DNA of 59,811 nt from Pseudomonadota bacterium (lineage in GTDB: Bacteria; Pseudomonadota; Gammaproteobacteria; JAKAQQ01), in contig JAJYFY010000004.1 in the NCBI GenBank assembly GCA_021785265.1, positions 1 to 59,811 on the forward strand. The letters are read 5' to 3'. Of this stretch, positions 4,055 to 4,265 are shown one piece after another; position 1 is the stretch's first letter, and each line of letters opens with the position of its first letter. Below the pieces are notes generated by a model, which was given only the letters and a program-made list of their open reading frames with translations, did no database searches and had not been told where the DNA came from. A program made the translations under genes and the position numbers.

Positions 4055-4088
4055 ATAAAAAACCCGCTGCGGCGGCACCGTGCGGGTT
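4055..4088 (-). terminator. Intrinsic terminator (attenuator) ahead of metY
   Basis: On the minus strand, AACCCGC (4088-4082) pairs with GCGGGTT (4067-4061), and a run of T residues follows at once. The hairpin lies about 50 bases before the metY start, downstream of a strong promoter, so it would stop transcription before the operon unless prevented. Its 5' arm is also part of a 19-base segment (4098-4080) complementary to an upstream leader segment. Confidence 0.8.
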
Positions 4089-4202
4089 GAAGGTTTTGGT
4101 GGGATTTCTAAAAAACTACATTGACCGCAAAACCTCATCAACACCGCACCACTGCGGCATCAGGCAGCAACACATGTGACGCCCCGCAGGACGCCGTGGT
4201 GC
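4080..4202 (-). promoter_or_regulatory. Mutually exclusive RNA pairings: antiterminator versus protector stem
   Basis: Three leader segments can pair in two ways. Segment 2 (4149-4128) matches segment 3 (4098-4080, CAAAACCTTCAACCCGCAC) over all 19 bases of segment 3, with only a 1-base and a 2-base bulge in segment 2. That pairing takes the 5' arm of the terminator and would permit readthrough. Alternatively, segment 1 (GCACCAC, 4202-4196) pairs with GTGGTGC (4152-4146), which overlaps segment 2 and would free the terminator. This is the layout of an amino-acid biosynthetic attenuator. The cysteine codons of the leader peptide lie between segments 1 and 2. A ligand-binding aptamer is the alternative; no known SAM or SAH riboswitch signature was seen. 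Confidence 0.7.
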
Positions 4203-4229
4203 GATTGGATGGGTGGGTTGGTAAAGCAT
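4116..4229 (-). CDS. Putative cysteine-rich leader peptide of the metYX-hom operon
   Basis: A 37-codon frame upstream of metY encodes a peptide containing HMCCCLMPQWCG, with three consecutive Cys codons (TGT TGC TGC) at residues 20-22, a fourth Cys at 28, and Met at 1, 19, 24 and 37. Its ATG lies 7 bases after the -10 box, so the message could be leaderless. The stop (4118-4116) sits just past antiterminator segment 2. A ribosome paused at the Cys codons would cover segment 1 and favour readthrough, whereas one that finishes would cover segment 2 and favour termination. A shorter start at residue 19 (MCCCLM) is also possible. No family is known to me; the role is inferred from layout only. 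Confidence 0.55.
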   Translation of the reverse strand: MLYQPTHPIAPRRPAGRHMCCCLMPQWCGVDEVLRSM

Positions 4230-4236
4230 GGGCAAG

Positions 4237-4265
4237 ACAATAACCGGATTGGCCGGTGCTGTCAA
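4237..4265 (-). promoter_or_regulatory. Sigma-70 promoter of the metYX-hom operon
   Basis: On the minus strand, TTGACA (4265-4260) is followed by a 17-base spacer and TATTGT (4242-4237). This is a consensus -35 with optimal spacing. Transcription should start near 4230, directly at the leader-peptide ATG (4229). Confidence 0.8.

Follow-up and report, generated by a model that had tools for sequence, protein, structure and literature searches.

What decides whether the homocysteine-synthesis genes of this bacterium are transcribed? On the minus strand of the window, i.e. the whole 59,811-nucleotide stretch that we analysed (from a 1.78-Mb draft assembly, 85% complete), positions 4265 to 4057 hold a promoter, a short open reading frame (ORF) and a terminator in this order, and metY-metX-hom come next (Table 1). 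Three features of an attenuator are present: clustered Cys/Met codons, an intrinsic terminator and, just past the regulatory codons, an antiterminator that is mutually exclusive with it. We propose, with a probability of about 0.87, that this leader is a ribosome-mediated transcription attenuator of metY-metX-hom, in which the translation of Cys and Met codons would gate the terminator. A preliminary description of the locus had called it a cysteine-sensing translational attenuator. The word "translational" does not hold, as the intrinsic terminator between the ORF and metY places the control point at transcription.

Architecture and predicted switching of the metY leader

Between positions 3000 and 6000, a promoter scan found TTGACA-17-TATTGT as the sole promoter-like match on the minus strand. 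The ATG of the leader ORF (4229-4227) follows the -10 element at 7 nt, which is the usual distance of a transcription start. The ORF is therefore predicted to be leaderless, and we infer that transcription begins with the A of this ATG or a base beside it. Perfect promoters of this leaderless type (TTGACA-16..18-TANNNT-5..9-ATG) number only three in the window's own genome, the one of this leader among them. Another perfect one (L131 1503-1542; G000:C101:7898-7937) lies before a small gene, maybe a toxin-antitoxin partner.

Table 1. Features of the metY leader and the downstream genes in the window.
Feature	Position	Strand	Remark
-35 element TTGACA	4260-4265	-	Same in all ten leaderless-type leaders compared
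-10 element TATTGT	4237-4242	-	17-nt spacer; ATG 7 nt downstream; predicted start ~4229
Leader ORF, leaderless (predicted)	4116-4229	-	37 codons + TAG; peptide MLYQPTHPIAPRRPAGRHMCCCLMPQWCGVDEVLRSM; homologous leaders exist
Segment 1, GCACCAC, 5' strand of the protector stem	4196-4202	-	Sequence; in the minimum free energy (MFE) fold
Regulatory codons Met-Cys-Cys-Cys (ATG TGT TGC TGC)	4164-4175	-	Relatives keep a Cys/Met run
3' strand of the protector stem, GTGGTGC, overlaps segment 2	4146-4152	-	Sequence; fold
Segment 2, antiterminator strand GTGCGGTGTTGATGAGGTTTTG, within the ORF	4128-4149	-	Folding; permutation test
Segment 3, CAAAACCTTCAACCCGCAC	4080-4098	-	Partner of segment 2 or 5' arm of the terminator
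Intrinsic terminator AACCCGCACGGTGCCGCCGCAGCGGGTT + T run (3:4)	4057-4088	-	Fold -15.6 kcal/mol
metY, O-acetylhomoserine sulfhydrylase family	2697-4004	-	Pfam PF01053; Shine-Dalgarno-like GGAG before ATG
metX-like alpha/beta hydrolase	1567-2700	-	Pfam PF00561; gene order same in relatives
hom, homoserine dehydrogenase	488-1654	-	Pfam PF00742; relatives keep the order

Cys occupies codons 20, 21, 22 and 28 of the leader ORF (the adjacent trio at 4172-4164, the fourth at 4148-4146), so that the Cys run sits 15 codons ahead of the leader stop. Counted from the first base of codon 22, the last of the adjacent trio, segment 2 begins 17 nt downstream. All 19 bases of segment 3 pair with segment 2, with two bulges on the leader side, and the protector stem that would compete for segment 2 is a perfect 7-bp helix. 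This stem is part of the full-length MFE structure of the window leader; the relatives are not uniform in having such a stem. The terminator hairpin (AACCCGC-loop-GCGGGTT, 4088-4061) precedes a T run, and the ATG of metY at 4004, with GGAG a few bases 5', has its ribosome site ~45 nt downstream of the terminator. Promoter spacing, the 37-codon frame with its three adjacent Cys codons, the terminator with its T run, both rival pairings and the identity of the three downstream genes had all been named in the preliminary description, and our analysis of sequence, folding and Pfam domains bears out each of them.

In the proposed mechanism, RNA polymerase would begin at the leader ATG, on its A or beside it, and a ribosome would load onto the leaderless ORF. 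With Cys-tRNA, and probably Met-tRNA too, well charged, the ribosome would reach the leader stop codon, segment 2 would not hold the pre-terminator segment, and the terminator would form and end transcription before metY. With Cys (or Met) in short supply, the ribosome would stall on the M-C-C-C codons, break the upstream protector stem and leave segment 2 free. Segment 2 would then pair with segment 3 before the 3' arm of the terminator is made, the terminator would fail, and the enzymes for homocysteine and methionine would be produced. Stalling, the direction of the response and its specificity are what we infer from this arrangement of parts.

The Cys codons were said to lie just where a stalled ribosome would switch the pairing, and state folding of nine leaders agrees with this. 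When the ribosome is placed on the first of the clustered Cys codons, 6 to 9 of the 7-10 bases of the terminator 5' arm are sequestered upstream before the 3' arm is made, whereas with the ribosome at the leader stop only 0-3 bases of the arm are held upstream. In the window, the advantage of the terminator drops from 12.2 kcal/mol with the ribosome at the stop to 1.5-0.5 kcal/mol when it is stalled. For a leader without any translating ribosome the picture is mixed: the full-length fold prefers the terminator, yet in six of the nine leaders its 5' arm is pre-paired upstream before the 3' arm exists. For L006, L122, L042 and L049, the terminator remains the thermodynamically more stable structure when the ribosome is stalled, and antitermination in these leaders would therefore have to be kinetic.

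The claimed pairings are present in the fold of the window leader, but taken alone this leader folds in an only mildly unusual way (z = -1.98). Its antiterminator duplex was equalled by 18 of 500 shuffles, and the corresponding counts for L029 (106/500) and L070 (153/500) mean that, taken singly, not every leader reaches significance for the strength of its antiterminator. Given these modest single-sequence statistics, it is the conservation that argues for the window's switch being more than chance.

Conservation in the window's class

Is the design kept by relatives? A DNA search returned homologous leaders in the same genus (L029), in the same family (L004, L005 and L007) and in another family (L006). 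Searching 369 genomes of the window's class for MetY at E<=1e-170, we found the MetY clade of the window in only four, namely its own genome, G004, G048 (L006) and G155 (L122, from a third family), and the leader is present in each of them. No further genome with this clade came from a draw of 398 genomes across the phylum. Every other class genome found with the MetY clade (six genomes, two further families) keeps the design: in each of L029, L004, L005, L007, L006 and L122, TTGACA is perfect, the spacer measures 17 nt, the -10 element is 7-8 nt away from an ATG or GTG, and a Cys/Met codon run is followed by a mutually exclusive antiterminator and terminator. Across ten leaderless-type leaders, the distance from -10 to ATG is 7-9 nt. 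The order metY-metX-hom is likewise the same in the class relatives. As a cause of this conservation, a common repeated terminator is ruled out by its one copy per genome: six genomes contain the terminator sequence, once each, and 50 others lack it, with an empty control.

The leader peptides of the relatives (...FELHMCMCCMLMHVRVEAFAIT, ...HMCMCAWLTPVRVEAFAIA, VNTDRALHHFELHMCMCCVQMRVGALAKV, MSFMTSFAFFAFACMCMCMFMRIPVRARAVLQAR and MNSVVFTLRSARCIACMMCMCIPQHAMRVMESGPVISTG) can be set beside that of the window. The comparison suggested by the preliminary description thus came out in its favour for the Cys codons, the antiterminator, the terminator and the leaderless promoter spacing. L029, the closest relative, keeps only two of the four window Cys codons in place (CCR, WRG), retaining CC of CCC and losing the fourth Cys.

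The two pairings also match each other. In L122, the antiterminator and the terminator arm have changed together, CAU.GCGGGUU facing AACCCGC(G)AUG, where the others have GUGCGGGUU with RACCCGCAC. Since the terminator arm is nearly invariant within the window's class, a cross-leader permutation test took the place of a formal covariation count there. With arms chosen by hand, the segment after the Cys codons of each leader paired better with its own terminator arm than with arms swapped in from other leaders (0 of 20,000 permutations; the same outcome when 12 representatives were used). Parts, order, spacing, conservation and the co-matching of both pairings can all be read directly from the sequences compared.

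Recurrence before metY in other phyla and tandem arrangements with SAM riboswitches

Is the design restricted to this class? Of 80 named metY loci, 15 have a short ORF with at least 4 Cys in 6 residues, against an expectation of 0.0 from dinucleotide shuffles and 0 on the antisense strand, which served as a second control. With at least 3 Cys in 6 residues, the number was 24 (expected 1.0; antisense 3). Because this pattern had first been spotted by eye, fresh samples were drawn, in which an ORF before metY had to contain C>=2 and C+M>=4 within 8 residues. Such ORFs were present in 8/20 Gemmatimonadota loci and 5/15 Acidobacteriota loci (expected 0.05 and antisense 0 in either case). The 30 most similar loci of the Bacteroidota phylum gave 1/30 (expected 0.15), and within the window's class the other MetY clade gave 0/22 (expected 0.4), from which we conclude that the distribution is patchy; a general property of metY leaders is ruled out by the latter count. 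Cys or Cys/Met-run leaders stand ahead of metY in many Bacteroidota and Balneolota, frequently in tandem with a SAM riboswitch. In one locus, L093, a single metY gene is preceded by two successive short Cys/Met-rich ORFs, at distances of about 430 and 250 nt.

The position of the pairing partners recurs as well. We compared 26 leaders that differ considerably in sequence and located the upstream segment most complementary to the 5' arm of each terminator. In 20 of them this segment starts between -9 and +20 nt relative to the last Cys/Met codon (binomial p about 1e-6 for an expected share of 30%, with related leaders not being independent). Leaderless-type promoters also occur in L042 (Gemmatimonadota) and in L049, L070 and, as judged from the -10 to ATG distance, L156, L160 and L162 (Acidobacteriota). 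The stand-alone form on leaderless ORFs would be that of the window's class, the Acidobacteriota and one member of the Gemmatimonadota.

Neither a riboswitch at the gathering threshold nor a SAM aptamer was found in the window leader by an Rfam scan, and no SAM aptamer was found in the relatives L122, L123 and L124. Of the 16 Bacteroidota loci with Cys ORFs that were the first to be scanned, 15 have a SAM-I aptamer immediately 5' of this ORF. The order SAM-I, Cys-run ORF (with its ATG a few bases past the aptamer) and metY was observed in L086, L091, L092, L096, L097, L098, L104, L105 and L106, with the aptamer and ORF at about 3.6-3.9 kb in the loci (about 1.7-1.9 kb in L096); in loci of this order the riboswitch may control the translation of the leader peptide itself. 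The reverse order, a Cys-run ORF with its own intrinsic terminator, then SAM-I with a second terminator, then metY, is seen upstream of 4001 in three loci, L076 and L109 of the Balneolota and L057 of the Bacteroidota, and would amount to two attenuators in series. In Gemmatimonadota, a SAM-II aptamer precedes metY in 9 of 20 loci. In three of these (L139, L144 and L147), the SAM-II aptamer and a terminator come first, and a leader ORF of the Cys/Met or Met-rich kind and a second terminator come after them.

The same design, as judged from these sequences, recurs before metY in several phyla and looks like an undescribed, widespread sulfur-amino-acid switch. We somewhat favour the broader reading that homocysteine synthesis is controlled, in at least four phyla, by a class of joint Cys and Met codon sensors, alone or together with SAM riboswitches as a two-input gate. 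As part of this reading, SAM-I or SAM-II would stand in series with the leader in either order, and the two inputs at one gene would be the SAM level and the charging of Cys- and Met-tRNA.

The probable signal and the relation to known systems

Does the leader sense cysteine only? Met makes up 38% of the non-Cys residues within three positions of clustered Cys in the window's class, compared with 3% elsewhere in the ORFs, and 34% versus 1% in Bacteroidota/Balneolota, both sets having been chosen by Cys. In Gemmatimonadota and Acidobacteriota, a set partly chosen by the C+M criterion, the values are 32% and 4%. Furthermore, the predicted leaderless leader of L070 before metY, MHGKLTTATSMNMRMRMRDGRGPAES, has a run of Met codons and zero Cys, and is possibly a pure methionine attenuator. 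On the basis of this enrichment and of L070, a joint Cys and Met sensor is likelier than a pure Cys sensor. The cysteine sensing of the preliminary description accordingly stands in so far as the Cys run is conserved, but would have to be widened to Met. A cysteine-only switch, in which Met codons are incidental (e.g. ATGTGC repeats favoured in RNA structure), is a tentative alternative of lower probability: the Cys codons of the window leader include three in a row, pure Cys runs make up several leaders of Bacteroidota (L081, L063 and L091), and where a leader also has a SAM riboswitch, methionine status is sensed already, but neither the Met enrichment near clustered Cys nor the retention of Met codons in L070 fits this alternative.

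Peptides rich in Cys and Met are able to bind metals and to react with oxidants, and H-M-C is conserved among the peptides of the closest relatives; a nascent peptide could arrest the ribosome through a metabolite, a metal or thiol chemistry instead of codon starvation. We regard this as improbable, because the peptides are unrelated in sequence and variable in length outside the Cys/Met run, whereas specific residues are usually required in arrest peptides, and because the regulated genes themselves make sulfur amino acids. Still less probable is that the leader ORF controls ribosome access to metY as in mycobacteria, where a leaderless polycysteine ORF before a sulfur gene is the arrangement reported (Canestrari 2020, as cited in PMC13236596). 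Both in the window and in relatives, the ORF is separated from metY by a strong, conserved intrinsic terminator that ends in a T run, the antiterminator matches this terminator, and the metY ribosome site lies well past it. A chance combination, in which a short ORF merely has three Cys codons and the terminator is constitutive and unrelated to it, would draw weight only from the modest single-sequence statistics; it is scarcely credible with every part conserved in six more class genomes and a recurrence in other phyla that greatly exceeds the shuffled and antisense controls.

The transcription attenuator that we prefer shares with the trp and his attenuators a leader ORF with a run of regulatory codons, an antiterminator and an intrinsic terminator, and in the window a possible protector stem as well. 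It differs from them in its regulatory codons (Cys and Met), in its genes (metY-metX-hom) and in the absence of a significant sequence match. The Rfam model Trp_leader (RF00513) gave a weak full-length match (E = 0.021, 23.3 bits versus a gathering threshold of 41); with this sub-threshold match as the only one, a riboswitch was rejected as a candidate for the leader. The leaderless trpL attenuator ORF of Sinorhizobium meliloti, whose transcript starts at the ATG (PMC7298713), resembles the start predicted here.

The mycobacterial leaders resemble the window leader in their leaderless or short ORFs, consecutive Cys codons, sulfur genes and cysteine as the expected signal, and in the account cited in PMC13236596 their regulation is described as translational. 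The likeness drawn in the preliminary description is thus good for the polycysteine leaderless ORF but ends at the switch: the mycobacterial candidates have the Cys run near the stop codon and conserved terminators were not found among them (PMC1262725), whereas in the window the run is distant from the stop and is proposed to act on an intrinsic terminator. None of the ten leader peptides matched a leader-peptide family in NCBIfam at E<=10, and the known protein families of this kind were set aside. As far as tested, the window leader is homologous neither to the mycobacterial polycysteine leaders nor to trp; by analogy, its sensing resembles the former and its switching the latter.

Two further elements come close. 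The uORFC-8-2 motif before cysS in Rhodobacterales, proposed to be a ribosome-mediated transcription attenuator, likewise combines tandem Cys codons with a terminator, but is confined to cysS and to one order, has Cys at codons 14-15 and is not reported to be leaderless (PMC8632094). The putative metXZ RNA element of beta-proteobacteria also precedes homocysteine-synthesis genes and has a proposed terminator/antiterminator; by its description, with six highly conserved regions, a pseudoknot and no leader peptide described, it stands apart (PMC4239095). SAM-I (RF00162) and SAM-II (RF00521) riboswitches control the same gene, metY, in other phyla, unlike the aptamer-free leader of the window and in part, as shown above, in tandem with Cys/Met leaders. 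In the open-access literature, we found no description of a Cys/Met leader ahead of metY or of one that is combined with a SAM riboswitch, an absence that is weak evidence. Based on its proposed trp-like transcription attenuation and on this search, we regard the leader as a variant of ribosome-mediated attenuation that probably has not been described before and does not belong to the mycobacterial family.

If our reading is true, many uncultured and environmental bacteria would gate their homocysteine synthesis by the translation of Cys and Met codons, beside or in place of SAM riboswitches, and the leader would be a concrete candidate for the unknown regulation of methionine genes noted in proteobacterial surveys (PMC4239095). 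Leaderless attenuation would then reach beyond rhizobial trp and mycobacteria, and the tandem loci would be natural devices of riboswitch and leader peptide, the logic of which is accessible with simple reporters.

Some other features of the window were recorded. After hom, at the contig end, lies a cysH-like (APS/PAPS reductase) fragment with an in-frame stop (8-484, minus strand), identified from reading its translation only; no such fragment follows hom in the relatives examined. Divergent to the leader, a 228-aa hydrophobic protein without a Pfam match (4367-5053, plus strand) is found at the same place, with 82% identity, in a genome of the same genus (L127). A TPP riboswitch (RF00059, 62.9 bits) is located at 42532-42625 on the plus strand.
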